From a virus: DNA of 21,097 nucleotides. Within the stretch, counting starts at the first letter, position 1. Each line of letters opens with the position of its first letter. Positions 1-18,487 of this stretch are shown piece after piece. The translations under genes and the position numbers were made by a program. The notes beneath the pieces were generated by a model. The model worked only from the letters and a program-made list of their open reading frames with translations. It was not told the DNA's origin and ran no database searches. Location of the stretch: IMG/VR virus record IMGVR_UViG_3300027467_000047, positions 1 through 21,097 of that record. One strand, written 5' to 3'.

Positions 1-66
1 ACAATGAAGGACGAAAAGGGCGAGCCGACCAGAAAAGCGGCATCCTTGAAGCGCTGGAAGTGCTGA
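1..66 (+). CDS. C-terminal end of an unidentified small phage protein (partial)
   Basis: The frame is open from the first base and stops with TGA at 64-66, giving a basic tail that ends KAASLKRWKC. An ATG at 4-6 lies in frame, but the gene more likely begins upstream of the window. The next gene starts one base after this stop, which supports a real end in an operon of small genes. Too little is visible to assign a family or function. Confidence 0.45.
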   Translation, partial: TMKDEKGEPTRKAASLKRWKC

Positions 67-67
67 C

Positions 68-226
68 ATGGAGCCAGACAAGTTAATCTGGGGCTACATC
101 CAAGCCAAAAAGCAACTTGAGTGGATGAAAACCCAAAAAGGCGCTTGGATGAAGATTCAGGTTTACAGACAAATCATCAGGGGCTACGAGGCCAAACTCA
201 AGGAGTTAACAAATGCCGTTAATTAA
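68..226 (+). CDS. Small hypothetical protein, 52 aa
   Basis: ATG at 68 opens a 52-codon frame ending TAA at 224-226. It starts one base after the preceding stop and overlaps the next gene by 14 nt, the compact spacing usual in phage operons. The protein is rich in K, Q, W and Y (it begins MEPDKLIWGYIQAKKQ) and probably helical. It has no cysteines, signal peptide or membrane segment. I do not recognise a family. The case for it being a gene rests on packing and on the fact that without it this stretch would be an unexplained gap. Confidence 0.55.
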   Translation: MEPDKLIWGYIQAKKQLEWMKTQKGAWMKIQVYRQIIRGYEAKLKELTNAVN

Positions 227-3233: not shown

Positions 3234-5357
3234 ATGGCTACACAAACCAATCAGGACGATTACGACCCCAGAATCGACGAAGCCAAGCAGTTTCTGAAGA
3301 TGGCTAACGATGCGGATACGATGAATCGTCAAGAGGCGCTTGAAGATTTAAAGTTTGTCAACGGCGACCAGTGGCCTGTTGAGCTACAAAACTCCCGCAA
3401 CCTAGAATCCCGCCCCGTTCTGACAATTAACAAGCTGGATGGCTATTGCCGCCAAGTTGTTAACCAAATCCGTCAGCAACGCCCTCGTCCCAAAGTCCAC
3501 GGGATGAACAGCCAATCCGATGCCAAGGTTGCCGAGGTTATCCAAGGCATGATTCGGCACATTGAGGCCAATTCCAACGCTGACAACGCCTATGACACAG
3601 CCGCAGATTACGCTGTTCGCATGGGTTGGGGTTACATCCGCATCCGCACAGACTACGTGCGTGAGGACAGTTTCGAGCAGGAAATCTACATTGACCCTGT
3701 GGATAACCCGTTCACAGTTTATTACGACATTAACAGCGTCTTGCCTGATGGCTCTGATGCCGAGCGTTGCCTTGTTACAACAATGCTCAGTAAAAAAGAT
3801 TTCCACAAGATGTACCCAGACGCTGAAGACACGAGCTTTAGCCAGCGTGGTACGGGCGACAGTCAGTCTGAGTGGATTACCAAAGAGGATATTCGCCTAG
3901 CCGAGTACTTTTACACCGTTCGGACAAGAGAAAAGCTCTTGCTTCTGAGCGATGGAAGCAGCATCTTTGAGAGCGATTTCAAGAAATCTGAGCAGATGCT
4001 TGTTGCTGGCGGGGTGTACCCGATTGACGAGCGCATGAGCGTTAAGAAGTCAATTAAATGGTGCAAACTGACTGCTGTTGAGGTGTTGGAGGAGGGCGAG
4101 TGGCCCGGACGCTACATCCCCATCATTCCTGTTTACGGGCGGCATTGCATCGTTGGGGACAAGCGCAAGAAATTTGGCATGGTGCGTCACGCCAAAGATG
4201 CCCAGCGTATGTACAACTTCTGGCAAACCTCGCTCACCGAGTCGGTTGCACTAGCTCCCAAGGCCAAATGGATAATGGCAGAGGGTCAGGACGAAGGCCA
4301 CGAAAACGATTGGGCACAAGCCAATACAAAGAGCTTCCCGCTTCTGCGTTACAAGCAGACGGACATTGAAGGTCGTCCAGCGCCAGCGCCCCAGCGACTT
4401 CAGCCTGAGCCGCCTCCTGCTGGCATCATGGCGGCATCAGCCTCAATTGATGACGATATTAAGACCCTGATGGGCATTTTTGACCCAGCACAGCTAAAGC
4501 AGGGCAATATCTCTGGCAAGGCTCTGAACGGGCAACAGCAACAGGTTGACCTGTCCAACTATGATTTCTACGACAACCTGACAAAATCCCAGTGCCAAGT
4601 TGCTCGTGTGATTCTTGACCTGATTCCCCGCATTTACGACACAGAGCGTGTTTTGCGGATTATTGGGGACGATGGCAAGCCTGATTTGGTAACGGTCAAC
4701 GAGTATGATGCGGTCAACCAAGTGGTCAAGAACAACCTTGCTGTGGGTCTGTACGATGTGGTTATGGACACTGGCCCCGGCTACAACAGCCGCCGCCAAG
4801 CCGCAGTCGAGGCGATGACTCCGATTCTGGCGGCAGACCCTGCGCTCATGCAACAGATTGGCGATTTGTGGTTCCGCAATCAAGATTTCCCCGGCGCAGA
4901 CATTATTGCTGACCGCTTGGCTACGCTTAACCCGCTGGCGCAGTTGGACGAGAAGTCCGATATACCGCCCCAAGCGCAGATGGCTATTAAGCAACTCCAA
5001 GCCCAAAACCAGCAAATGCAACAGGCGCTGGAGCAATTCCAAGTTGAGCGCAAACAGCGTATGGACATTGAGTCTGTTAAGCAAGAAGCCGAAACAAAGC
5101 GTGAGCTTTTGCGTCAAACCGGCAAGGCTTTCAACGTCGAAACGATGGCAGAAGTGCGGGTCAATGACCAGAACACCCGTTCGATTACCTCGCAGAACAA
5201 GATGGAAATTGAGGCGATTGTCCAGTTGCTTTTGCACAACATGGACACCGCAAGGCTGAATCAGGAGATTGAGCGTCGAAATGCCGAGCAACGAGCCGCC
5301 ATGCAGTTTGCGGCGCAGGATGTTGACAACCAACAAAATCCATTGATGGGACAATAA
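3234..5357 (+). CDS. Portal protein, P22 gp1-like
   Basis: The 707-aa protein is close to the length of the P22 portal (725 aa) and lies between large terminase and scaffold as in P22. Twelve copies form the ring through which DNA enters and leaves the capsid and on which the tail is built. The N-terminal part has the typical helical clip/wing character, including the motif MNRQEALEDLKFVNGDQWP. A Q-rich coiled-coil stretch at about residues 578-630 (QLQAQNQQMQQALEQFQVER) and a polar C-terminal tail match the helical barrel that P22-type portals carry. The ATG at 3234 is chosen over a TTG five codons upstream. The family call rests on context, length and overall pattern, because portals have few invariant residues. 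Confidence 0.9.
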   Translation: MATQTNQDDYDPRIDEAKQFLKMANDADTMNRQEALEDLKFVNGDQWPVELQNSRNLESRPVLTINKLDGYCRQVVNQIRQQRPRPKVHGMNSQSDAKVAEVIQGMIRHIEANSNADNAYDTAADYAVRMGWGYIRIRTDYVREDSFEQEIYIDPVDNPFTVYYDINSVLPDGSDAERCLVTTMLSKKDFHKMYPDAEDTSFSQRGTGDSQSEWITKEDIRLAEYFYTVRTREKLLLLSDGSSIFESDFKKSEQMLVAGGVYPIDERMSVKKSIKWCKLTAVEVLEEGEWPGRYIPIIPVYGRHCIVGDKRKKFGMVRHAKDAQRMYNFWQTSLTESVALAPKAKWIMAEGQDEGHENDWAQANTKSFPLLRYKQTDIEGRPAPAPQRLQPEPPPAGIMAASASIDDDIKTLMGIFDPAQLKQGNISGKALNGQQQQVDLSNYDFYDNLTKSQCQVARVILDLIPRIYDTERVLRIIGDDGKPDLVTVNEYDAVNQVVKNNLAVGLYDVVMDTGPGYNSRRQAAVEAMTPILAADPALMQQIGDLWFRNQDFPGADIIADRLATLNPLAQLDEKSDIPPQAQMAIKQLQAQNQQMQQALEQFQVERKQRMDIESVKQEAETKRELLRQTGKAFNVETMAEVRVNDQNTRSITSQNKMEIEAIVQLLLHNMDTARLNQEIERRNAEQRAAMQFAAQDVDNQQNPLMGQ

Positions 5358-5371
5358 AACCGTGGTAAATT
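5343..5371 (+). promoter_or_regulatory. Weak sigma70-like promoter candidate before the scaffold gene
   Basis: TTGATG (5343-5348) and TAAATT (5366-5371) are separated by 17 nt, the optimal spacing. Each matches the consensus at four of six positions. The -35 overlaps the end of the portal gene. A transcript starting here would carry the hairpin at 5386-5402 in its leader. Such matches also arise by chance. Confidence 0.25.
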
Positions 5372-5385
5372 AGCCACAAACCTTA

Positions 5386-5402
5386 CCAGTGAGGTTCACT
5401 GG
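5386..5402 (+). promoter_or_regulatory. Perfect 7-bp inverted repeat (compact hairpin) in the scaffold leader
   Basis: CCAGTGA (5386-5392) and TCACTGG (5396-5402) are exact reverse complements separated by GGT. The RNA would form a tight hairpin ending 10 nt before the TAGGGA ribosome site of the scaffold gene. No T-run follows, so it is not an intrinsic terminator. An overlapping, mutually exclusive pairing AACCT (5379-5383) with AGGTT (5392-5396) is also possible. It could be a translation control element, an RNA-processing site or an operator. Function is not shown by the sequence. Confidence 0.5.
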
Positions 5403-5423
5403 GCTTAAATCGTAGGGATACGT

Positions 5424-6326
5424 ATGTCCGAAAACCAAGCTAGTAACGTTGTAACTAGCGAAAATGCGGCTGAGTTCTATGCACAAAAGTTGGGTTTAGC
5501 CCCTGCGGAACCAACACCCGAGGCCGATGTTGCAGAAACGCAACAACAGGAGCCGGGAACGGAAGAAGTAGACGGGAGTGAGCCTGAAGCGAAAGAGGAA
5601 GCCAAGTCACAGGACGAGCCTAAAAAGGCGAATCCGAAACTGGAAAGGCGCTTTAGCGAGATTACTAAGCAGCGTGAAGAAGCTCGCCGTGAGGCAGAGG
5701 CTGAACGCCAGCGTAGGGTTGAGCTAGAGGAAAGATTGGCGGCGCTTGAACGTCAACAGGCTCCAAAACAGCCCGTGGTTGACCAAGAACCCCAACCGAG
5801 TCAGTTCCAAGATGCGTTTGAATATGCCAAGGCTCTAGCAGAGTACACGGCTGACAAGCGGATTGAGGAAATGAAACGGCAGGAAGCCGAGGCTAAAGTT
5901 GAAGCCGAACGCCAAAAAGTCATTGAGACTTGGACGCAGAAGGTGGAGCAAGTCAAAGCTGAATTGCCCGACTTTGATGACATGGTTGCATCTTCTGATG
6001 TGGTTGTGTCTAACGATATTCGTGATGCCATCCTAGAGAGCGATGTAGGGCCAAAAATCCTATATCACCTCGCAGAGAACAGCGAATTCGCCAAAAAAGT
6101 TGCGGCTATGCCAACTCGTGCGGCCTTGAAGGAAATCGGTAAGCTAGAGGCGCGATTTGAGGCGAAAGCCGAAGAAAAACCTGTGGCAAAAAGTAAAGCG
6201 CCAGCGCCTGTCACGCCTATCCGTGCAGCTTCTGGTGTAGCTGAAACCAAAATGTCCAGCGATGGGCAATGGTATGGAAGTTACGCCGAATGGAAAGCAG
6301 CACGTAAAGCGGGTAAGGTTCGCTGA
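5424..6326 (+). CDS. Scaffolding protein
   Basis: This 300-aa protein matches the P22 scaffold in size (303 aa) and position between portal and coat. It has an acidic E/Q/P-rich N-terminal third, then a highly charged helical segment (residues about 70-115, including EARREAEAERQRRVELEERL) typical of coiled coils. It closes with a short basic tail, SYAEWKAARKAGKVR, like the coat-binding end of scaffolds. It would direct procapsid assembly and leave before or during packaging. It has no cysteines or membrane segments. A TAGGGA ribosome site lies 6 nt before the ATG. The call rests on composition, length and synteny, because scaffolds diverge rapidly in sequence. Confidence 0.85.
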   Translation: MSENQASNVVTSENAAEFYAQKLGLAPAEPTPEADVAETQQQEPGTEEVDGSEPEAKEEAKSQDEPKKANPKLERRFSEITKQREEARREAEAERQRRVELEERLAALERQQAPKQPVVDQEPQPSQFQDAFEYAKALAEYTADKRIEEMKRQEAEAKVEAERQKVIETWTQKVEQVKAELPDFDDMVASSDVVVSNDIRDAILESDVGPKILYHLAENSEFAKKVAAMPTRAALKEIGKLEARFEAKAEEKPVAKSKAPAPVTPIRAASGVAETKMSSDGQWYGSYAEWKAARKAGKVR

Positions 6327-6372
6327 CAACCCTTTTTTGTTCATCGAATTTTTCTTGAAAAGGAGAGCGTAA

Positions 6373-7599
6373 ATGTCAAACACGCTACTTACCATTAGCA
6401 AGATTACCAACGAAGCGTTGATGGTCTTGGAAAACGAACTTACCTTCACCTCTGAAGTTGACCGTAACTACGACGACCAGTTCGCTGTTGTTGGCGCAAA
6501 GATTGGCGCAACTGTGAACGTTCGCCGCCCCGGTCGTTTCATCGGTACAACTGGCCCTGCGCTGAATGTTGAAGATTTCAACGAAACCAGCACTCCCGTC
6601 ACGTTGTCCACCCAATTCCACGTTGACACCCAGTTCACCACTCAGGACTTGGCTCTTTCGCTGGATATGTTCTCTGACCGTGTGTTGAAGCCTGCCGTAG
6701 CCGCAATCGCAAACAAGATTGACTATGACGGTCTGACCACCGCCCGTTTGAACACCGCCAACATCGTCGGAACCCCCGGCACTCCTTCTAGCGACCTCGG
6801 TACATACCTGACCGCCGCCGCTTATCTGGATGCTGAAGGCGCTCCCCGTGATGGTCGTCGTTCTTGCATCGTTGAACCCTTCACTTCTGCGACCATTGTT
6901 AACAGCCTCAAGGGTCTGTTCGTGCCGCAAGAGGCGATTGGCGAGCAATACCGCAAGGGCTTGATGGGTCGTGACTCTGCTGGCATGAACTGGAAACTTG
7001 ACCAGAACGTGAACGCACAGACCTTTGGCTCGTTCAACGGTACTGCTACCGCTGACACAACCACAAGCAACGCTGGCATCCTGACCTCTGGCTGGGCTTC
7101 TACTAGCACTATCACCATCACCAAGTCTGGTACTGTGACCCCCAACGTGGGCGACACTTTCACCATTGCTGGCGTGTATGCTGTGAACCCCCAGAACCGT
7201 CAAGCCTACGGCTCCAACCGCCTCCGCAATTTCGTCATCAAGTCGATTAGCGGTTCCACCGTGGTTGTCAGCCCCGCCATCATCAGTGGTGGTCAGTTCC
7301 AGAACGTCAGCATCCCGAGCGCCAGCGCAACGGCTGCTATCACGTTCTACAACACTTCTGGCACAGTCTCTCCGCAAAATATCATCATGCACCGCAACGC
7401 CTTCACGCTTGCGATGGCTGACCTTGAGTTGCCCGAGGGTGTTCACTTTGCTGGTCGTGCTTCCGACAAGGAAATCGGTCTGTCCATGCGTGTTGTCCGT
7501 CAATACACCATCAACAACGACTCTATCCCGACTCGTATTGATGTGCTGTACGGCTGGGCGCCCTTGTATCCCGAACTCGCTTGCCGTGTGGCTTCCTAA
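6373..7599 (+). CDS. Major capsid (coat) protein, P22 gp5-like
   Basis: The 408-aa protein (P22 coat is 430 aa) follows the scaffold. The N-terminal part has the P22-coat pattern MVLENELTFTSEVDRNYDDQ and the later VNVRRPGRF segment. A threonine/serine-rich beta section at about residues 221-335 corresponds to the inserted I-domain of P22-type coats and contains GDTFTIAGVYAVNPQNRQ, a recognisable hallmark. The remainder would form the HK97-like fold of the shell. Translation signals are strong: AGGAG at 6361-6365 lies 7 nt before the ATG. Codons favour C-ending forms (AAC, TTC, ATC, CGT) more than neighbouring genes, as expected for the most abundant protein of the infection. Confidence 0.95.
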   Translation: MSNTLLTISKITNEALMVLENELTFTSEVDRNYDDQFAVVGAKIGATVNVRRPGRFIGTTGPALNVEDFNETSTPVTLSTQFHVDTQFTTQDLALSLDMFSDRVLKPAVAAIANKIDYDGLTTARLNTANIVGTPGTPSSDLGTYLTAAAYLDAEGAPRDGRRSCIVEPFTSATIVNSLKGLFVPQEAIGEQYRKGLMGRDSAGMNWKLDQNVNAQTFGSFNGTATADTTTSNAGILTSGWASTSTITITKSGTVTPNVGDTFTIAGVYAVNPQNRQAYGSNRLRNFVIKSISGSTVVVSPAIISGGQFQNVSIPSASATAAITFYNTSGTVSPQNIIMHRNAFTLAMADLELPEGVHFAGRASDKEIGLSMRVVRQYTINNDSIPTRIDVLYGWAPLYPELACRVAS

Positions 7600-7627
7600 T
7601 CAACTTCACTAGGAAAGGAAACAGATT

Positions 7628-7861
7628 ATGTCTAATCCCGGCCCCGCATCAACCGTAACCCCCGTCTACCTGCTTAACGGTAACGCCGCTGATGGCGTTG
7701 CTGTTGGTGTGGCTGGCGGCTTGGTTGGCTTTTATGGCGAAACCCCCGTTGCTCAAGCTGGCGCTATTACTGCGCTGACCGCAGCACCGACTACCGCTGA
7801 GTTTGTGGCAGCTACCAATGCCATTATCACAGCGCTCAAGAATGTTGGCATCACAGCCTAA
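7628..7861 (+). CDS. Small probable head decoration/head-fibre protein, 77 aa
   Basis: This is a small A/G/T-rich protein directly after the coat gene with a good ribosome site (AGGAAAGG about 8 nt upstream). It has a central segment GGLVGFYGETPVAQ and a C-terminal helix TNAIITALKNVGITA. The pattern 'GFYG.TPVxQ' followed by a helix ending in LxxLG is one I associate with the trimerising ends of phage head-fibre and decoration proteins. That family link is from memory. There is no signal peptide. Being last before the strong terminator at 7875-7910, it should be expressed at a level similar to coat, as a decoration protein would need. Confidence 0.7.
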   Translation: MSNPGPASTVTPVYLLNGNAADGVAVGVAGGLVGFYGETPVAQAGAITALTAAPTTAEFVAATNAIITALKNVGITA

Positions 7862-7874
7862 TCTTGACTGACCG

Positions 7875-7910
7875 AGCCACCCTGCTTAACTGTGGGGTGG
7901 CTTTTTCTTT
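7875..7910 (+). terminator. Strong rho-independent terminator after the capsid genes
   Basis: AGCCACCC (7875-7882) pairs perfectly with GGGTGGCT (7895-7902) across a 12-nt loop. The T-rich run TTTTTCTTT (7902-7910) follows at once. The stem is GC-rich and uninterrupted. It lies between the small capsid-associated gene and the glycosyltransferase gene and would end the capsid transcript. Confidence 0.9.
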
Positions 7911-7919
7911 GGAGACACA

Positions 7920-8579
7920 ATGCACGTAATGATTGCGATTCCCGCCTATACGGGCGTGGTACACGTATCAACGATGCGCTCCCTCTTTACCGATTTGATT
8001 GATTTGGTTCAAAGGGGCGACAGATTTACACTGGTTGACGATATTGGAAACGCCTTAATTGCAGATTCAAGAGGGGTGATTGCCACCCGCTTTTGGGAGT
8101 CAGACTGCGATTGCTTGGTATTTGTTGACAATGACGTTAGCTGGGAAAAGGGCGCTCTTTTGCGTCTGATTGATGCCAAGGCTGATGTGGTCGGCGGGGT
8201 GTATCCGATGCGCCGTGACCCGATTCAGTACCCTATTCATTATCTTGACAAGCCAGAATTGTGGGCAGACCCCGAAACAGGGCTTTTGGAAGTTAAGTCA
8301 ATTCCAACAGGGTTTATGAAGTTAAGCCGAGAGTGCATTGGTAAGATGATTGAGGCTTACCCAGACAAGCACTATTACACGGCAGAGCGTGACAAGCAGT
8401 TTTACCCGCTTTTTGACCATATTTTTGAGGATGGTTACAAGTGGGGCGAGGACTTCAGTTTTTGCATTCGCTGGCGCAAAATCGGCGGCAAGGTATGGAT
8501 TGACCCAGAAATGGCGATGGGGCATACTGGGCTAAAGATTTTTGAAGGGCACATTGGAAAGTGGTTAAAAAGCCGCTAA
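7920..8579 (+). CDS. Glycosyltransferase-like protein (GT-A/family 2 type)
   Basis: This 219-aa protein begins with a beta strand, HVMIAIPAYTG, as in nucleotide-sugar-binding Rossmann-like folds. At 67-73 it carries VFVDNDV, whose Asp-x-Asp (70-72) fits the metal/nucleotide-sugar site of GT-A enzymes. A second conserved-looking block is GEDFSFCIRWRKIGG (176-190), with the acidic pair often seen at the catalytic base position, followed by H202. It has no membrane segment and should be cytoplasmic. It lies right behind the terminator, with GGAG 5 nt before its ATG, and is followed by fibre genes. It could modify a virion protein or host surface glycan, or act on DNA bases. The donor and acceptor cannot be read from the sequence. 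Confidence 0.8.
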   Translation: MHVMIAIPAYTGVVHVSTMRSLFTDLIDLVQRGDRFTLVDDIGNALIADSRGVIATRFWESDCDCLVFVDNDVSWEKGALLRLIDAKADVVGGVYPMRRDPIQYPIHYLDKPELWADPETGLLEVKSIPTGFMKLSRECIGKMIEAYPDKHYYTAERDKQFYPLFDHIFEDGYKWGEDFSFCIRWRKIGGKVWIDPEMAMGHTGLKIFEGHIGKWLKSR

Positions 8580-8584
8580 TGGGC

Positions 8585-8590
8585 TAGAAT
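8585..8590 (+). promoter_or_regulatory. -10-like TAGAAT in GGGCTAGAATT motif
   Basis: One base after the glycosyltransferase stop is GGGCTAGAATTAAAT, containing a five-of-six -10 match. No good -35 is visible at 16-18 nt. A very similar motif, GGGACTAAAATTT, occupies the same place after another stop at 18488-18500. Promoter function is inferred only. Confidence 0.3.
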
Positions 8591-8615
8591 TAAATATCTT
8601 TCAAAAGGAAGGTCT

Positions 8616-8957
8616 ATGGCTATCTCCTCCACCATTCGCTCTATTGGCAAAACAACGGCTGTTTCGGTGGGGGCAAGCGCCACCTCTGAAGTGCTAATTA
8701 CCTCAAGCACAAACGACCAAAACACGTTTGTTTCGCTGATTAACACTGGCGCAACCTCCGTTGCTGTTAAGTTTGGCCCGACAGGGTTGAGCGCTCCTGT
8801 TTTGCCCGTAAGCGGCTCCACAACTGGCGATTTTGTTCTGCCGCCGAGCATGAACAACGCCATCATTTTTGAAGTCCCGACCACTCCTTGCTATGTGCGA
8901 ATGATTGGTTCTGCGGCTGGCCCGTCCATCGTTTATGTGACTCCTGTGGGGCTGTAA
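8616..8957 (+). CDS. Small beta-rich structural protein of unknown role, 113 aa
   Basis: A clear ribosome site (AAGGAAGG, about 5 nt upstream) precedes the ATG. The protein is rich in S, T, V and G with alternating hydrophobic residues (for example NTFVSLINTGATSVAVKFGP). This suggests a single beta-sandwich such as those used in head decoration or fibre-attachment proteins. There is no signal peptide or catalytic motif. Its stop overlaps the start of the large fibre-like gene by 1 nt (TAATG), so the two are probably co-translated and may act in the same structure. I do not recognise a named family. Confidence 0.75.
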   Translation: MAISSTIRSIGKTTAVSVGASATSEVLITSSTNDQNTFVSLINTGATSVAVKFGPTGLSAPVLPVSGSTTGDFVLPPSMNNAIIFEVPTTPCYVRMIGSAAGPSIVYVTPVGL

Positions 8958-11077
8958 TGTCTAACCCGGCTGATTCCTCAGTTCAAAATCTGCTGCCAGT
9001 TCAGGCGTATTTCTCAACTGATGGCGAATTTCAGACCTTCATTGGTCAGGGTCAGCCTTTTTACGCCTCGGTTGACCCGCAACAGTCTGGTCTGCACATC
9101 ACTAATAGCACGATTGACAGCACGACGATTGGTGCAACAACCCCGTCATCGGCTATTTTCACGACTGCCCAAGTCAATACTGCGCCAGCCACCGCTTTGG
9201 ATGTGGCAAACAAGCAGTATGTTGACGGATATGTCGCTGGTATTTCTTGGAAGCCGCCCGTAAATTATGGGACAACAGGAAATATCACGCTTTCTGGTCT
9301 ATCAACTCAAGGCGGCGGTGATTGGGGTTCTGCGCTGACCGCAGGAATGCGGATTCTGGTTAAAAACCAAACAGCGCAAGCAGAAAACGGGATTTATGTT
9401 GTCGCATCAGGAGCTTGGACTCGTTCGGAAGATTGCAGCACTTGGGATGAGTTGGTTTCCGCAATTTGTTTTGTTGAGTCTGGTAGCACTCTCGGCGGTT
9501 CTGCTTGGTATTGCCCTGCTCAACCCGGTGGAACACTCGGAACTACTGCTGTTACATGGTCTAACTTTTCGGTAGCGGCTACTTACACTGCCGGCACGGG
9601 GCTGACGCTCTCGGGCTATCAGTTCAGCATCACCAACACAGGTGTTGCGGCGGCAACATACGGCTCTGGGTCTAGCGTCCCTGTTTTTGCAGTTAACGCT
9701 CAAGGCCAACTGACCTCGGTGACAAACACCTCGATTTCGATTAACGCAAATCAAATCACATCGGGGACTGTCACCAATGCCCAGCTTCAAAATAGTAGTT
9801 TTACGCTCAATGGAACTTCTGTTACTTTGGGTGGTTCTGCGACAATCACTGCGGCAAATCCTCAGACTCTTACGTTCGGGACGGGACTAAATACTGGTAG
9901 CTATGACGGGTCTGCCGCCACCACGATTAGTCTTGCAAACACAGGCGTAAGCGCATCCACCTATGGCTCGGCATCTGCTGTGCCTGTTTTTGCGGTAAAC
10001 GCCCAAGGGCAGATTACCAGCGTCACCAACACCAACATCAGCATTGCCAATACGCAAGTTACGGGGCTGGGCACAATGTCCACCCAGAATGCTAGTGCGG
10101 TGGCGATTACTGGCGGCACGGCAACGGGGCTGACCAATCTTGGCGCTGATTACTTGCAGTTCAACACGGGAGCGACAGTAACTCCTGCTGTTGGCAAGAT
10201 TTGGTGGGATGGCGGCACGACTGTAAATGTGGGCATGACTACCAACGTGACGGGTCATGCGTTGGAAGACCAGTACTATTACATCAAAGCCTCGTCAGCA
10301 ATTACCAAAGGCCAAGTGGTGATGTTTACAGGCTCTGTGGGCGCTTCTGGCGTTGCCACGGGTGCGCCAGCCACAGGGGTTGCTGATGGCTCTTACATCA
10401 TGGGTATTGCGGCAGAGAACATTGCCTTAAACGGCTTTGGACTTGTGCAGTACGAGGGAACCTTGCGTAACGTCAATACCTCTGGGATTGGCGATGGTGA
10501 GGTTCTTTGGTACAACCCTGCGGTTACTGGTGGCTACACAGCTACTAAGCCAAGCGCACCAAACGTCAAGGTTCAGGTTGCGGCTGTGATTAACGGCAAC
10601 AGCAGTGGCGGTGGCGTTATCCTGGTTCGTGTTAATGCTGGTTCTGTGCTTGGTGGCACGGACTCAAACGTGCAATTTGGCTCTTTGGTTAACAACGACC
10701 TCATCCAATACAACAGCACGGCTGGATATTGGGCGAACGTTGCTCCTAGCTCGGTTTCGGTTGGAACAGCCACAAACCTTGCTGGCGGCGCTGCTGGGTC
10801 TGTGCCTTACCAAACCGCATCGGGCACGACTGCAATGCTTGCGGCGGGTACAAGCGGTCAAGTCCTGTCAATCAACGGCTCTGGCTTGCCAACATGGTCA
10901 ACGCCAACGGCTTATGCAACGGTGACTGATGACACAACGACCAACGGAACCCGATATATTCTGTTTGCCAACCAAACAACTGGCAACCTGACCACAGAAT
11001 ATGTTTCTTCCACTAAACTTCAATTCAACCCAAGCACAGGCGCTTTGAGAGCAAGCCAGCTTGTAATCGCACCGTAA
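8957..11077 (+). CDS. Tail-fibre-like structural protein, 706 aa
   Basis: The start is the ATG at 8957 inside TAATG, because an upstream in-frame start at 8888 would bury 69 nt in the previous gene. The protein is almost entirely S/T/G/N/A-rich beta structure with no transmembrane segment. Residues 229-262 and 330-363 are two copies of a 34-aa tail repeat (28 of 34 identical), each with YGS..VPVFAVNAQGQ. These are typical of phage fibre shafts. Residues about 75-160 (AVDVANKQYVDG-like segment, then VNYGTTGNITLSG) resemble the region seen near the head of many fibre proteins. The C-terminal part has motifs such as LIQYNSTAGYW and AAGTSGQVLSINGSGLPTW, common in fibre and baseplate spike ends. 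Likely role: host-surface attachment. No enzymatic depolymerase motif is visible. Confidence 0.8.
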   Translation: MSNPADSSVQNLLPVQAYFSTDGEFQTFIGQGQPFYASVDPQQSGLHITNSTIDSTTIGATTPSSAIFTTAQVNTAPATALDVANKQYVDGYVAGISWKPPVNYGTTGNITLSGLSTQGGGDWGSALTAGMRILVKNQTAQAENGIYVVASGAWTRSEDCSTWDELVSAICFVESGSTLGGSAWYCPAQPGGTLGTTAVTWSNFSVAATYTAGTGLTLSGYQFSITNTGVAAATYGSGSSVPVFAVNAQGQLTSVTNTSISINANQITSGTVTNAQLQNSSFTLNGTSVTLGGSATITAANPQTLTFGTGLNTGSYDGSAATTISLANTGVSASTYGSASAVPVFAVNAQGQITSVTNTNISIANTQVTGLGTMSTQNASAVAITGGTATGLTNLGADYLQFNTGATVTPAVGKIWWDGGTTVNVGMTTNVTGHALEDQYYYIKASSAITKGQVVMFTGSVGASGVATGAPATGVADGSYIMGIAAENIALNGFGLVQYEGTLRNVNTSGIGDGEVLWYNPAVTGGYTATKPSAPNVKVQVAAVINGNSSGGGVILVRVNAGSVLGGTDSNVQFGSLVNNDLIQYNSTAGYWANVAPSSVSVGTATNLAGGAAGSVPYQTASGTTAMLAAGTSGQVLSINGSGLPTWSTPTAYATVTDDTTTNGTRYILFANQTTGNLTTEYVSSTKLQFNPSTGALRASQLVIAP
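9641..9742 (+). repeat. First copy of the 34-aa fibre repeat
   Basis: Codons 229-262 of the 706-aa fibre-like protein, matching 9944-10045 at 28 of 34 residues. The DNA copies differ at many silent positions, so the duplication is not recent or has drifted. Confidence 0.8.
9944..10045 (+). repeat. Second copy of the 34-aa fibre repeat
   Basis: Codons 330-363 of the 706-aa fibre-like protein. The conserved centre is VPVFAVNAQGQ. It is spaced 101 codons from the first copy. Confidence 0.8.
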
Positions 11078-11692: not shown

Positions 11693-12361
11693 ATGGCGTA
11701 TGTTTATATGTTAATTGACGGTCGAAATAACAAACCTTTCTATATTGGGAAAGGGAAGGATGAGCGTTGCAATTATCATGTGAAAGAAGCTAAGTATTAT
11801 CCTGAACGCAAATCAAAAAAACTTAACAAGATTCGTAGCATATTGAATGATGGTTTTGAAATAAAGATAAAAAAAATTGAAGATGATGTAACAGATGAAG
11901 ATGCTTTAGATTTTGAATGCCTTGTTATTTCTGAATTAAGAGATATTGGGTTTGATTTAACAAATGTGACTGAAGGTGGCGATGGAGCTTCTGGTTATAA
12001 ACATACAGAGCAACATAAAAATCGAATGTCGTTTTTAATGCGTGGTAGAAAATTTGACGAGGCAACAAAAGAAAAAATGAGAAAACCTAAGTCGCCAGAA
12101 GGACGGGCGGCTATTGCTGAAGCGCGAAAAACTGTAAACTACAAACCGTCAGAAAAAACAAAATTACAAGTTTCTCAAAAATTGTTTGGACGAGTCAGTC
12201 CTATGAAGGGACGCAAGCAATCTGAAGAATCAAAAGCAAAAATGAGTATGCAAAGAAAAGGTGTACCTAAATTGAAAACAATTTGTCCTCATTGTGAAAA
12301 ATCAATTTCTGTAAATACATCTAAGCGTTGGCACTTTGATAATTGCAAGGAGAAGAAGTAA
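11693..12361 (+). CDS. Free-standing GIY-YIG homing endonuclease
   Basis: The 222-aa protein opens with the GIY-YIG nuclease fold. YVY is at 3-5, YIGKGKDERC at 17-26 includes the presumed catalytic R25, and H29 and the metal-site E75 (in DFECLVIS) follow. Two NUMOD3-like DNA-binding segments are at about 101-129 and 169-190 (GYKHTEQHKNRM; MKGRKQSEESKAKM). A probable zinc finger is formed by C198, C201, H214 and C218. These enzymes cut a specific site and spread by repair of the break. The gene lies between two intact fibre genes with no intron signature. It is strongly AT-rich and uses AAA, AAT and TTT heavily, unlike the capsid and terminase genes, so it probably came from elsewhere. Its stop overlaps the next start by 1 nt. 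Confidence 0.93.
   Translation: MAYVYMLIDGRNNKPFYIGKGKDERCNYHVKEAKYYPERKSKKLNKIRSILNDGFEIKIKKIEDDVTDEDALDFECLVISELRDIGFDLTNVTEGGDGASGYKHTEQHKNRMSFLMRGRKFDEATKEKMRKPKSPEGRAAIAEARKTVNYKPSEKTKLQVSQKLFGRVSPMKGRKQSEESKAKMSMQRKGVPKLKTICPHCEKSISVNTSKRWHFDNCKEKK
12347..12352 (+). promoter_or_regulatory. Shine-Dalgarno site fixing the start at 12361
   Basis: AAGGAG lies within the last codons of the homing endonuclease, 8 nt before the ATG at 12361. An in-frame TTG at 12343 would overlap the site itself, so 12361 is the preferred start. Confidence 0.6.
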
Positions 12362-15140: not shown

Positions 15141-15301
15141 AAGAAGTAAAGCTGGAACTAACCGTCGAAGAATTGCAAGTAGTGGCTGGCGCTTTACGCG
15201 AGCTGCCCTATAAAGTTGTTGTAAATCTGCTACAAAAAATTGACAGGCAGGTAATTCCACAACTCCAAAGGGAAGCTCAAAATGGCAACGACCCCGTTTA
15301 A
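15137..15301 (+). CDS. Small protein, 54 aa, overlapping both neighbours
   Basis: A GTG at 15137 overlaps the previous stop as GTGTGA. The frame ends TAA at 15299-15301, overlapping the gp4-like gene start by 20 nt. The product begins KEVKLELTVEELQVVAGALR and continues ELPYKVVVNLLQKIDRQVIPQL. This is an amphipathic strand-helix-helix pattern ('ltveELxxvxxALxelPxkxvxxLixki') seen in many short phage proteins near this position. Function is unknown. Two translational overlaps, biased composition and the lack of another gene in 15141-15281 support it as real. Confidence 0.72.
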   Translation: MKEVKLELTVEELQVVAGALRELPYKVVVNLLQKIDRQVIPQLQREAQNGNDPV

Positions 15302-16268
15302 CATCATTAGCCGAGCATTAAAAGACATTGGCGCATTAGAAGCCGGGGAAACGCCTTCTCCTGATGCCGCCCAAGATGCTTTTGATATGTTCAACGACCT
15401 CATTGACCAATGGTCAAATGAGAACATGATGGTTTTTAACGTCACAGAGATTATTTTCCCTGTGGTTCCGGGTCAGACTCAGTACACGATTGGCCCTAAC
15501 CCATCCACCCAGAACTTCATTGGCGCTCAGTTTACAGGCTCAATTACGGGCAATGTGCTGACCGTATCGGGCATTTTGTCAGGGGCTGTGGCTCAAGGGC
15601 AAACTTTGAGTGGTACGGGCATCGCTGAAGGCACAAAAATTGTGGCTTTTGGTACAGGCGCTGGCGGCAACGTCAACGAGCAGGGCACTTACATTCTTAA
15701 CAAGTCCCAGACGGTTGCCTCCACGACCATCACGGCTTACTACCAAAAGCCTTTGAGCATTGACTCGGCTTTTGTGCGGATTAACACGAACTCCAACGGT
15801 GTGCCGATTGTTAATGGTGGTTTGGACTACCAAGTGGCGATTCTTGCCCTACAAGATTACGAGCTTATTGGTCTGAAAACGCTGAGTGGCCCGTGGCCTA
15901 AAGCGCTGTATTTCAATCCGGGCGAGGATTCTGGCAACTTGTTCTTGTGGCCTAACCCTTCTCAGGGTGAAATGCACATCTTTGCCAACACGATTTTCAG
16001 CCGGTATGAGAGCTACTACACGCCCATTTCGATGCCGCAAGGCTATCTGATGGCTATGCGGTGGTGCTTGGCAGAGCGTCTGATGCCGATGTATGGCAAA
16101 AATGACCCAACGCAAATTGCGATGATTAACGCCTATGCTGCACAAGCAAAGTCAACGATTAAGCGCACAAACATGAGTCCCTTGCAAACCGCAAGGTATC
16201 CCGATGCTTTGCTTGCCAACAAGAGCAAAGACGCTGGCTGGATTCTTACAGGCGGTTTCTTTAACTAA
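15282..16268 (+). CDS. Tail-tube/head-completion protein, P22 gp4-like, with an inserted beta domain
   Basis: The N-terminus IISRALKDIGALEAGETPSP, followed by DMFNDLIDQWSNENMMVF, matches the gp4 (P22 tail accessory/head completion) pattern. The segment GYLMAMRWCLAERLMPMYGK and a long helix give the expected C-terminal half. P22 gp4 forms the first ring under the portal. This protein is 328 aa against 166 aa in P22. Part of the excess is an inserted domain at residues 84-152 (FTGSITGNVLTVSG to TVASTTITA), a beta-rich unit also found twice in the next gene. The gene overlaps the 54-aa gene upstream by 20 nt and ends 9 nt before the gp10-like gene, so the pair are probably made together. Confidence 0.85.
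   Translation: MATTPFNIISRALKDIGALEAGETPSPDAAQDAFDMFNDLIDQWSNENMMVFNVTEIIFPVVPGQTQYTIGPNPSTQNFIGAQFTGSITGNVLTVSGILSGAVAQGQTLSGTGIAEGTKIVAFGTGAGGNVNEQGTYILNKSQTVASTTITAYYQKPLSIDSAFVRINTNSNGVPIVNGGLDYQVAILALQDYELIGLKTLSGPWPKALYFNPGEDSGNLFLWPNPSQGEMHIFANTIFSRYESYYTPISMPQGYLMAMRWCLAERLMPMYGKNDPTQIAMINAYAAQAKSTIKRTNMSPLQTARYPDALLANKSKDAGWILTGGFFN
15531..15737 (+). repeat. Shared beta-domain copy A (in the gp4-like gene)
   Basis: Codons 84-152 of the gp4-like protein: FTGSITGNVLTVSG, then TLSGTGIAEGTKIVAF, closing with a SQTVASTTITA strand. The unit resembles copies at 16677-16868 and 16875-17057 in the next gene. Confidence 0.75.
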
Positions 16269-16277
16269 GGAGCGACA

Positions 16278-18251
16278 ATGCCTGATTTTGGATTTGTCGG
16301 CCCAAGTTACGAGGCTCCTAGCATCTATCAGGATGCTCAGGAATGCATTAACTTTTACCCTGAAATTGACCCCCTAAAAGAGCCGGGGACTCGGGGTGTT
16401 GTTGCCCTGTATCCAACCCCCGGACTGACCACAAAGGTTGTTTTGCCCAACACCCAAGAGGTGCGTGGGGTGAGAACCGTGTCTGGTGGCGAGCAAATGG
16501 TTGCGGTCTGCGGCCCGTATGTCTATGTCTTGTCGGCAACGCTTGTTCCTGCCGTGGTGGGGGTGCTTAACACTTCCACAGGGATTGTGGGGATTACTGA
16601 CAACGGCACAAACGTCTACATCGTAGACGGTGCTTATCGGTACACGTGGCGCATTTCAGCGCCAGCCACGGCTGTTTTGACGGGTTCGATTAGCGGCACA
16701 ACCCTGACCGTAAATTCGGTGTCTAGCGGCACGATTGCGGTTGACCAGCAGCTATTTGGGGTCGGGGTTTTGTCCGAAACCATCATCACGGCTGGTAGCG
16801 GCTCAACATGGACGCTGAACCGCAGTCAGACCGTAGCCACAGAAAGCCTAAATACTGCCGCTGTTAGCGCCACATTTACTGGCACAATTTCTGGCACGAC
16901 CCTGACGGTCAGCGGTGTAACTGGCAATATCTATGTTGGGCAGACCATTCAGGGTGCTGGCGTAACGCTTGGCACGATTGTGGTTGAGGAGCTTACCTCC
17001 ACGACATTCAAGTTAAGCACAAGCCACACGATTGGCACGGGCGTGACCATGTGGGCGCTTAACTTCTCTGTTTTGCCTAGCAGTGACGGGGCTTTTTCTG
17101 GCGCAACATCGGTGGACATTATGGACAACTACTTTGTCTATAACCGTCCTGATTCTCAGTGGTGGGGCGCTTCTGACCTAAATTCGCCCATCAGCCCTGC
17201 TTTGAGCTATGGGGTCAAAGACGGTGGCCCGGATAACCTTGTTTCCCTGATTGTTGACCATCGGGAGGTTTACCTTCTTGGCGAGCAATCCTCTGAGGTT
17301 TGGACGGACGTTGGCTCGGTTCCTTTCCCGTTCCAGCGTATTCCCGGCACGTCAACCCAGCACGGGATTGTGGCTGAATTCTCGGTGTCTCGATTGGGCA
17401 ATTCCTTTGCCTATGTCAGCCGAAACAACCGTGGGCAAGGCCAAATCATGCAAATGAACGGATATGTGCCCCAGCGCATTTCCACCCATGCGGTTGAGAA
17501 CAGCCTTGTTAACCAGACGATTGATGATGCGATTGCGTGGACTTACCAGCTAGAAGGCCACGAGGTTTACGTTGTCACATTCCCGAGCATTGGAAGCAAC
17601 GGCTTAACATGGTGCTATGACACAGCAACCCAAATGTGGCACAAATGGCTTTATTGGGAGTCAAACCAGACCTACGGGCGGCATCGTGGCAATTGTTGCT
17701 GTGTATTTCAGGGTATGGTGCTGGTCGGCGACTACCAAAACGGCAAATTATACGCATTGGATAAAACCAACTATACGGATGATGGCAACCCCATCCGTAG
17801 GGTAAGACGTGCGCCGCATTTGGTGACGGACTTCCAGCGCCAGTATTTTGACGAGTTGCAGATTCAATTCCAGCCGGGTGTTGGCACAACTGGTTTGTCG
17901 GTTAACTTGGTTAACTATTCCAACAACCCAGAGGAATACATCATTTACCCCGAGGCAACCTTAACAATTGCCCCGACTCAATCGTTTGTGATTGGCAACC
18001 AAGGTAGCGGTGTTCCTCAAAACATCACCACAACCCAGCCAAAAGCCATGTTGCGGTGGTCAAACGATGGTGGCTCAACTTGGTCTAAGGAGTACTGGGT
18101 TGGAATCGGGGCGCAAGGCAAGTACCAAAACCGAGCCATTTGGCGGCGGTTGGGGATGGCTCGTGACCGTGTTTTTGAGGTGGCAATTACCGACCCTGTT
18201 AAGGCGGTTATTGTGTCGGCTAACCTAAAGGCAAGCAAAGGGGCGAACTGA
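16278..18251 (+). CDS. Tail hub/DNA stabilisation protein, P22 gp10-like, with two inserted beta domains
   Basis: P22 gp10 forms the hexameric tail hub below gp4 and helps hold packaged DNA. This 657-aa protein (gp10 is 472 aa) has a strongly beta-rich, propeller-like body. Segments include LIVDHREVYLLGEQSSEVW, NSFAYVSRNNRGQGQIMQMN and LEGHEVYVVTFPS, and the C-terminus is RAIWRRLGMARDRVFEV from residue 619. Residues 134-197 and 200-260 are two copies of the shared insert (SGTTLTVNSVSSGT and SGTTLTVSGVTGN). Without them the length approaches the family's. It follows the gp4-like gene by 9 nt and its stop overlaps the next start by 1 nt. The assignment rests on order, length and C-terminal pattern. 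Confidence 0.86.
   Translation: MPDFGFVGPSYEAPSIYQDAQECINFYPEIDPLKEPGTRGVVALYPTPGLTTKVVLPNTQEVRGVRTVSGGEQMVAVCGPYVYVLSATLVPAVVGVLNTSTGIVGITDNGTNVYIVDGAYRYTWRISAPATAVLTGSISGTTLTVNSVSSGTIAVDQQLFGVGVLSETIITAGSGSTWTLNRSQTVATESLNTAAVSATFTGTISGTTLTVSGVTGNIYVGQTIQGAGVTLGTIVVEELTSTTFKLSTSHTIGTGVTMWALNFSVLPSSDGAFSGATSVDIMDNYFVYNRPDSQWWGASDLNSPISPALSYGVKDGGPDNLVSLIVDHREVYLLGEQSSEVWTDVGSVPFPFQRIPGTSTQHGIVAEFSVSRLGNSFAYVSRNNRGQGQIMQMNGYVPQRISTHAVENSLVNQTIDDAIAWTYQLEGHEVYVVTFPSIGSNGLTWCYDTATQMWHKWLYWESNQTYGRHRGNCCCVFQGMVLVGDYQNGKLYALDKTNYTDDGNPIRRVRRAPHLVTDFQRQYFDELQIQFQPGVGTTGLSVNLVNYSNNPEEYIIYPEATLTIAPTQSFVIGNQGSGVPQNITTTQPKAMLRWSNDGGSTWSKEYWVGIGAQGKYQNRAIWRRLGMARDRVFEVAITDPVKAVIVSANLKASKGAN
16677..16868 (+). 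repeat. Shared beta-domain copy B (in the gp10-like gene)
   Basis: Codons 134-197: LTGSISGTTLTVNSV, then LFGVGVLSETIITAG, ending with NRSQTVATESL. It resembles copy A at the start and at the SQTVA strand. Confidence 0.75.
16875..17057 (+). repeat. Shared beta-domain copy C (in the gp10-like gene)
   Basis: Codons 200-260: FTGTISGTTLTVSG, then TIQGAGVTLGTIVVEE, ending near the STSHTIGTGVTMW strand. It lies immediately behind copy B and has a more divergent end. Confidence 0.7.
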
Positions 18252-18487
18252 TGAGCAATGGTCTGTATTCATCCCCACAGGTAAACCCGTATCCTCAGAG
18301 CGAGTTTCTTGACCCAAACACAAAGCGCCCCACGAGGGCTTGGCAACAGTTTTTCCTGAATTTGCTTAACTTTGCAAGTTCATCAAGCGCCACGGCTGGT
18401 TCTGCAACCCTGCCAGCAAATCCTGTTGGCTTCATCACAATCACGGTTGATGGCAAACCGTACAAAGTCCCCTATTACAACGAGTAA
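18251..18487 (+). CDS. Small protein of unknown role, 78 aa, in the tail-needle slot
   Basis: The start overlaps the gp10-like stop as TGATG. The protein begins MSNGLYSSPQVNPYPQSEF, has PTRAWQQFFLNLLNFASSS in the middle and ends with GFITITVDGKPYKVPYYNE. The short helix followed by an S/A-rich linker and a final hairpin-like pair of strands could suit a small virion or chaperone protein. P22 carries its tail needle (gp26, a coiled coil of about 230 aa) at this place; this gene is far too short to be one, and has no heptad pattern. I recognise this general small-protein style from phage tail regions but know no function. Confidence 0.75.
   Translation: MSNGLYSSPQVNPYPQSEFLDPNTKRPTRAWQQFFLNLLNFASSSSATAGSATLPANPVGFITITVDGKPYKVPYYNE

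Follow-up and report, generated by a model that had tools for sequence, protein, structure and literature searches.

The DNA analyzed here (the window) is the whole 21,097-base stretch of IMG/VR virus record IMGVR_UViG_3300027467_000047. Its gene order is of the P22 type, running from the portal (phrog_156) and the P22 coat protein through fiber genes to a gp4-like and then a gp10-like gene. Our subject is three segments of the proteins encoded by these last two genes, designated units A, B, and C:

15282..16268, + strand: gp4-like head-tail adaptor gene, 328 residues (phrog_12985, E 3e-37; Pfam SU10_adaptor, E 1e-7)
16278..18251, + strand: gp10-like tail hub / head-closure gene, 657 residues (phrog_578, head closure Hc3, E 4.1e-97)
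15531..15737, + strand: unit A, gp4-like residues 84-152 (model strands 81-100, 108-110, 119-123, and 135-153)
16677..16868, + strand: unit B, gp10-like residues 134-197 (model strands 132-151, 157-161, 169-174, and 177-195)
16875..17057, + strand: unit C, gp10-like residues 200-260 (model strands 198-216, 223-226, 234-238, and 243-261)

The three units are clearly alike as proteins. Local similarity scores, each set against 2000 shuffles, were 111 for A/B (shuffle maximum 68, z 12.5), 94 for A/C (maximum 62, z 9.0), and 95 for B/C (maximum 66, z 9.1). A search of the window record with unit A as query returned exactly three places, A, B, and C, which are the coordinates at which an earlier note on this DNA had put one unit in the gp4-like and two in the gp10-like protein. 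The motifs given there are present as well, except that C reads GAGVTLGTIV, with V instead of I at the final position of "T.I". At the DNA level, likeness among the units is limited to short stretches of 10 to 22 bases, and a 17-base match between B and C lies narrowly above the codon-shuffle maximum; because only such short stretches are alike, the units are not recent DNA copies of one another.

AlphaFold models of both proteins were built; the underlying alignments contained window and viral-contig proteins and no others. The gp10-like model has a mean predicted local distance difference test score (pLDDT) of 88 and a predicted template modeling score (pTM) of 0.85, with the B and C blocks at 95 to 98; the gp4-like model has a mean pLDDT of 79 and a pTM of 0.67, with unit A mostly at 85 to 93 and dipping to 74 to 81 in a long loop. 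Counted from the start of each unit, the predicted strands fall at -3..16, 24..26, 35..39, and 51..69 in A, at -2..17, 23..27, 35..40, and 43..61 in B, and at -2..16, 23..26, 34..38, and 43..61 in C. By these offsets, the three segments are predicted to share strand order and spacing, with A departing from B and C mainly by a longer loop preceding the last strand. The gp4-like model superposes on P22 gp4 (8eao_A) with Z 14.7 over 110 residues at 2.1 A, showing the helical adaptor core, and the gp10-like model on P22 gp10 (8eap_D) with Z 37.8 over 445 residues at 2.5 A, showing the propeller-plus-platform architecture, and on Pan3 with Z 38.1. Together, the shuffle z scores of 9 to 12.5, the common strand pattern, and the absence of the segments from P22 gp4 and gp10 and from the gp10-like proteins of near relatives bear out the proposal of one domain family inserted three times, and that the three are inserted domains of a single family is, in our view, nearly certain.

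That the segments are insertions is evident among the relatives. The GenBank phages MW202520 and MW202674 have 70% identical gp4-like proteins in which the unit is present, and 62% and 66% identical gp10-like proteins from which B-C is wholly absent. More distant gp4 relatives (P26218, ctfPj964, PAE2, and Pam1) are without unit A. In Xanthomonas phage PBR31 (locus L003, 2045-2995), a divergent insert with the motif ISGAGIPAGATVTAI lies at the same gp4 site and scores under the profile threshold; judged by eye, it resembles the unit and is probably a distant form of it.

For the history of these insertions, we aligned 65 of 76 gp10 representatives plus the window (11 were omitted, six of them over-long through extra or split units) and, likewise with the window added, 41 of 42 gp4 representatives, from representative sets that skip sequences whose start was missed by a pattern. 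In a tree of the gp10 core comprising 66 representatives, with insert columns dropped, 30 rows have the B-C pair and 36 do not, and this distribution takes a single change. The 30 form one side of a branch with support 95; those without the pair are a 26-row sister group and 10 P26218-like rows. On the core sequences, a single gain of the B-C pair is the simplest reading. For 25 of the 26 loci in this sister group a gp4 sequence was available, and the unit is present in every one of the 25; since their gp10 proteins are without the pair, unit A is older than B-C.

Unit number varies within limits. Among complete distinct gp10 proteins (n = 246), 117 have no unit, 120 have two, seven have three, two have four, and none has exactly one, with some third matches weak (one at E 0.19); among complete distinct gp4 proteins (n = 253), the unit is absent from 22, single in 214, doubled in 15, and tripled in two. 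These tallies, like the count of other host ORFs given below, come from scans for which the unit itself was in part the query and which kept no more than the 80 best loci each; they are not natural frequencies, and the complete open reading frame (ORF) counts omit the window itself (L166 to L168) and ORFs cut by contig ends.

The units had been proposed to help explain why both proteins exceed their P22 counterparts in length. For the gp10-like protein (657 residues, against 472 in P22 gp10) this is so once a C-terminal loop that had passed unnoted is added: the B-C block of about 139 residues and this loop of about 45 together make up the excess. For the gp4-like protein the explanation is partial, unit A covering under half of the extra length over P22 gp4 (given the P22 gp4 length that we assume), and the remainder is largely a further beta region without counterpart in P22 gp4. 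The regions concerned are:

16659..17075, + strand: inserted block, gp10-like residues 128-266, flanked in the second propeller repeat by strands c (120-125) and d (263-266)
17892..18026, + strand: second, hypervariable gp10-like insert, residues 539-583, itself no copy of the unit
15432..16031, + strand: putative fiber-dock-like beta region within the gp4-like adaptor (roughly residues 51-250), housing unit A

The second insert ranges from 2 to 77 residues among 66 relatives, with nine changes on the tree, and its mean identity is 35%, as against 77 to 83% in core regions. It might serve as a docking loop for some tail part.

The unit extends well beyond these two genes. In the loci collected, it occurs in 102 ORFs other than gp4 and gp10, 84 of them with distinct first units; 44 of the 102 come from 38 loci of species genomes, some of which are metagenome bins whose organism name may not be the true source. 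Its hosts include, by Pfam (six of ten scanned proteins matched), Baseplate_J, phage tail Collar, Laminin_G_3, and pectate-lyase/beta-helix spike proteins, and, by PHROG, a baseplate wedge protein (phrog_6), a minor head protein (phrog_2122), and a virion protein (phrog_3287). All 14 of the aligned unit members that were searched match phrog_21413 and phrog_38233 (tail fiber protein), in whose long profiles (595 and 896 positions) the unit is one stretch. Two PHROGs match unrelated proteins by way of the shared unit. Searching with the unit against phage proteins, a check that the earlier note had proposed, thus recovered the family in many unrelated virion proteins. A profile alignment of the gp10-like proteins with the phrog_3287 set was likewise driven by the common unit, so it is silent on any shared insertion hot spot.

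No domain family in the databases searched accounts for the unit. In Pfam, there was no match for A, B, or C at E up to 1 and only scattered singletons for the 14 aligned members at E up to 10; NCBIfam gave no family beyond scattered singletons, PDB sequences gave no credible match, and the searches made of open-license papers gave no mention of the family. Foldseek against BFVD, a set of predicted viral proteins, matched 77 columns of an 894-residue viral protein at 1.3 A and 42% identity, and other viral proteins over 80 to 142 columns at 25 to 39% identity, one of them labeled HK97 major capsid protein. Going by length and identity rather than by an aligned range, these matches would correspond to the unit. 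The length of 894 residues is also that of a Sinorhizobium phage fiber ORF (L006). When whole models were submitted, the output of Foldseek and VIA was filled by adaptor and propeller rows, and 8eci_1 was matched over 78 columns with no aligned range in the output. Residues 220-306 of 5izl_B matched residues 58-153 of the gp4-like model (Z 6.7, 74 residues, 2.4 A) in a range rated unspecific by the tool. The matched region of 5izl_B would be a barrel of the RIFT / EF-Tu domain 2 type; literature searches on RIFT barrels in phage tails and on Arthrobacter phage Bridgette found nothing useful. From its sequence distribution, the unit is a promiscuous and apparently undescribed accessory module of phage virion proteins, about 65 residues long.

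Several loci show the unit in further arrangements. The gp10-like ORF of L075 (2414-4820) has four unit matches, one unit seemingly nested in the glycine-rich loop of another. A second portable domain of about 80 residues, with the pattern ...TISGT.GGTG.I.GY.NPTTYYIIATNGSTTF.LS..., occurs in up to three copies; such a longer domain splits unit C in the gp10-like ORFs of L072 and L079, with further occurrences in L026, L032, L033, L060, and L085, and profile comparison found no relation between it and the unit (hhalign E 0.06, on a thin profile of 17 rows). By eye, the unit has a jelly-roll context in L225 and L318. In a Bacteroidota protein (L354, ORF 3913-10797), five tandem units stand beside GEVED and fn3 domains, with a secretion sorting domain at the tail (the scan that included it gave any match for five of seven proteins), and the unit thus seems to live outside phages too. 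One Sphingopyxis flava genome holds three unit-bearing ORFs (L346 to L348); the unit DNA of two of these ORFs is 94% identical, possibly through a recent duplication.

We next consider where the units sit on the tail. WD40 structures align with the gp10-like protein from about 45 to 497, which fixes the extent of its propeller. Counting four strands per repeat places B-C between strands c and d of the second repeat, and the second repeat after the velcro strand is blade 3 by count. Passages of the published T7 and SU10 descriptions locate the nozzle domains in the "loop of blade 3" in T7 and "between blade 2 and blade 3" in SU10 (PMC6702177, PMC9509320). Because the strand count agrees with both descriptions, B-C probably occupies the propeller loop that carries the T7 and SU10 nozzle domains. 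The same passages describe a fiber-dock domain in the adaptors of T7, KP32, and SU10 and none in those of P22 and Sf6 (PMC6702177, PMC9509320). The gp4-like model has extra strands at 53-60, 67-70, 157-167, and 181-237, and it aligns over 152 to 216 residues with adaptors of the T7/KP32/SU10/N4/A4 type, as against about 110 with P22 gp4. As unit A is flanked by two of these extra strands, it most likely sits on a putative fiber dock of the adaptor. We hold this placement, with A on the dock and B-C in a nozzle-type loop, to be fairly probable. The remainders of both proteins superpose on P22 gp4 and gp10, and the sites of A and B-C relative to those structures are read from strand order in the models. 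The idea of decorations on the portal-proximal tail fits A on the adaptor and suits B-C less well: the corresponding propeller loop bears nozzle domains in T7 and SU10, which makes a distal or outer position on the hub more likely for the pair.

These observations suggest the following mechanism. The unit would be an autonomous beta module, about 65 residues in length; its long first and last strands, adjacent in the models, would allow it to be spliced into a loop of its host protein. Signs of autonomy are the nested unit of L075, the splitting of unit C by other domains in L072 and L079, and the unit-sized match at 1.3 A. On the adaptor ring, twelve copies of A would stick out at the T7-like fiber-docking place; the gp10-like hub would bear six B-C pairs, reaching outward at the T7/SU10 nozzle loop, P22 gp10 itself having no nozzle. 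In both places the units would act as outward spacers, making the tail stump longer and broader and giving neighboring tail parts a surface for contact. Unit A would have been acquired early, and the B-C pair later and once. A role in structural extension, rather than a catalytic or channel function, is the likeliest reading and is put forward tentatively.

Composition bears on this role. Across 242 units less than 80% alike, drawn from 627 distinct ones, 50% of residues are Ser, Thr, or Gly, 3% are charged, and 4.7% are aromatic, the one near-invariant aromatic being a Tyr at position 50 (94%). Since the unit is almost charge-free and poor in aromatics, a structural beta module is favored over a classical aromatic sugar platform. 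The units could nonetheless be glycan- or receptor-binding modules that aid host adsorption, and their composition is compatible with binding, because the beta-barrel in the catalytic region of K1F endosialidase, described in part of PMC12632334 as one of three polysialic-acid sites, holds sialic acid in a pocket of small or polar residues. Many hosts of the unit are spikes, fibers, and LamG proteins, and a unit-bearing phrog_3287 protein has a sub-threshold End_beta_barrel match elsewhere in its sequence (L388, 118-181, 24 bits against a cut-off of 35). The unit itself matches no sugar-binding family, however, and showed no profile relation to the End_beta_barrel-type domain of L388, L410, and L319 (hhalign E 0.55, on a thin profile of three rows); it also occurs in minor head and baseplate-J proteins. 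With a single near-invariant aromatic and so few charges, we consider a binding role unlikely, if worth keeping in mind.

Somewhat less probable is that the unit is a tolerated hitchhiker, spreading through permissive virion loops with little or no function. Its very broad and irregular distribution and its nested copies would suit such an element, as would the faster divergence of B and C, whose conservation within the clade is 0.67 and 0.63, compared with 0.77 to 0.83 for the core, though it stays well above the 35% of the second gp10-like insert. Against this stand the confinement of the pair to one clade with no loss within 30 representatives, the absence of exactly one unit from all 246 complete gp10 proteins, and the continued conservation of the unit's core motifs. 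Most likely, then, outward extension or contact surface ranks first, binding second, and tolerated hitchhiking third.

The origin of the three units is a separate matter. The earlier note held that they had spread by copying between neighbors, and the adjacency of the two genes and the tandem arrangement of B and C invite that reading, as does the fact that C is the nearest other-class unit for 14 of 39 B rows. The identities do not favor it. Mean identity is 0.49 for A-B, 0.45 for A-C, and 0.46 for B-C, which equals the means to units of unrelated viral ORFs (A 0.50, B 0.46, C 0.45) and to species-genome units (A 0.48, B 0.46, C 0.44). When the nearest unit of a different class is sought, 24 of 39 B rows and 39 of 46 C rows lead to an unrelated ORF; of the remaining seven C rows, two lead to a B and five to an A-type unit. 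Between gp4 and gp10 units, DNA identity is about 70% at best, a level that rules out recent gene conversion between the two genes; between either of them and a unit from an unrelated ORF, the best value is about 75%. As A also predates B-C, copying between the neighboring genes is improbable. In a tree of the units, each position mostly groups with itself, with poor resolution. Sequence comparison instead suggests that A, B, and C were probably acquired separately from a common phage pool; an old duplication followed by divergence is also possible. The reading in which the gp4 and gp10 folds include the segments as integral parts is barely credible and was dropped: the pair is nearly fixed in the close clade (30 of 30 representatives), but the segments are cleanly absent from relatives, including gp10 proteins 62 to 66% identical, the P22, Pam1, and Pan3 cores superpose without them, and their shared strand pattern points to a common fold.

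Taken as a whole, a portable module that extends the tail outward and was gained in separate events is the explanation that we favor, if by a modest measure. Some points weigh against it. The gp4-like model is of only moderate confidence; the outward placement draws on strand order and published descriptions, not on an assembled ring; unit A is conserved almost as well (0.667) as the beta region that surrounds it (0.683 to 0.695); and the unit trees, built on 65 columns, have well supported inner branches in only nine of 239 cases.

Among known systems, the closest precedent by analogy is the promiscuous immunoglobulin-like (Ig-like) domains of phages, which Fraser et al. 2006 reportedly described on virion proteins. 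Like these, the unit is a small beta module that recurs in virion proteins of unrelated kinds, as an in-frame insertion or addition; it differs in having four strands in the models, two of about 20 residues, and no evident Ig topology. Ig-family profiles gave no match for A, B, or C at E up to 1 or for the 14 members at E up to 10, and Ig-like membership, along with membership in a Pfam, NCBIfam, or PDB-sequence family, was set aside with nothing credible found. The nozzles of T7 gp12 and SU10 gp17 are likewise extra beta domains off the hub propeller, on what would be the same blade by strand order. Here, two tandem promiscuous units would take the place of the T7 barrel tip or the four Ig-like domains, at a position judged from strand order. 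As in the T7, KP32, and SU10 adaptors with their fiber dock, the gp4-like protein has an extra beta region between helices, putatively a dock, and unit A would be a further insert inside that region, not the dock itself. End_beta_barrel (PF12195) and E1_FCCH (PF16190) are small beta domains found in the unit-bearing proteins L388 (below cut-off) and L345, respectively; neither matches the units, their matches falling in other domains of the host proteins. Finally, phrog_21413 and phrog_38233 contain the unit as a stretch and are whole-protein families in which it is not defined as a domain.

That phage proteins share domains is well established (PMC10684548). Promiscuous beta modules of virions are known, and the present family, apparently absent from Pfam, NCBIfam, and the PDB, seems new; it is common in environmental phages and present in genome records of several bacterial phyla. 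With a named profile for the unit, parts of many tail and head proteins now called "hypothetical" would be labeled, and false annotation via the shared unit would stop. The single gain in gp10 at a probable nozzle-type site offers a testable case of short phage tails gaining length. A bolder reading, which is possible and which we offer with some reserve, is that a P22-type hub rebuilt a T7-like nozzle from two borrowed modules in one event, atop an earlier fiber-dock module, using an undescribed portable domain found across phages and several bacterial phyla.

Two features of the surrounding genes deserve mention. A free-standing GIY-YIG/NUMOD3 homing endonuclease gene lies at 11693-12358 of the window, flanked by fiber genes, and in MW202674 an annotated endonuclease sits between the gp4- and gp10-like genes; homing endonuclease genes near tail genes could drive the exchange of neighboring tail genes. 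Downstream of the gp10-like gene, an ORF of 78 residues (18251-18487) begins with a stretch (YPQSEFLDPN.KRPTRAW) that matches the start of the unit-bearing L225 fiber protein (score 68, shuffle maximum 47), and it is perhaps a stand-alone fiber anchor.

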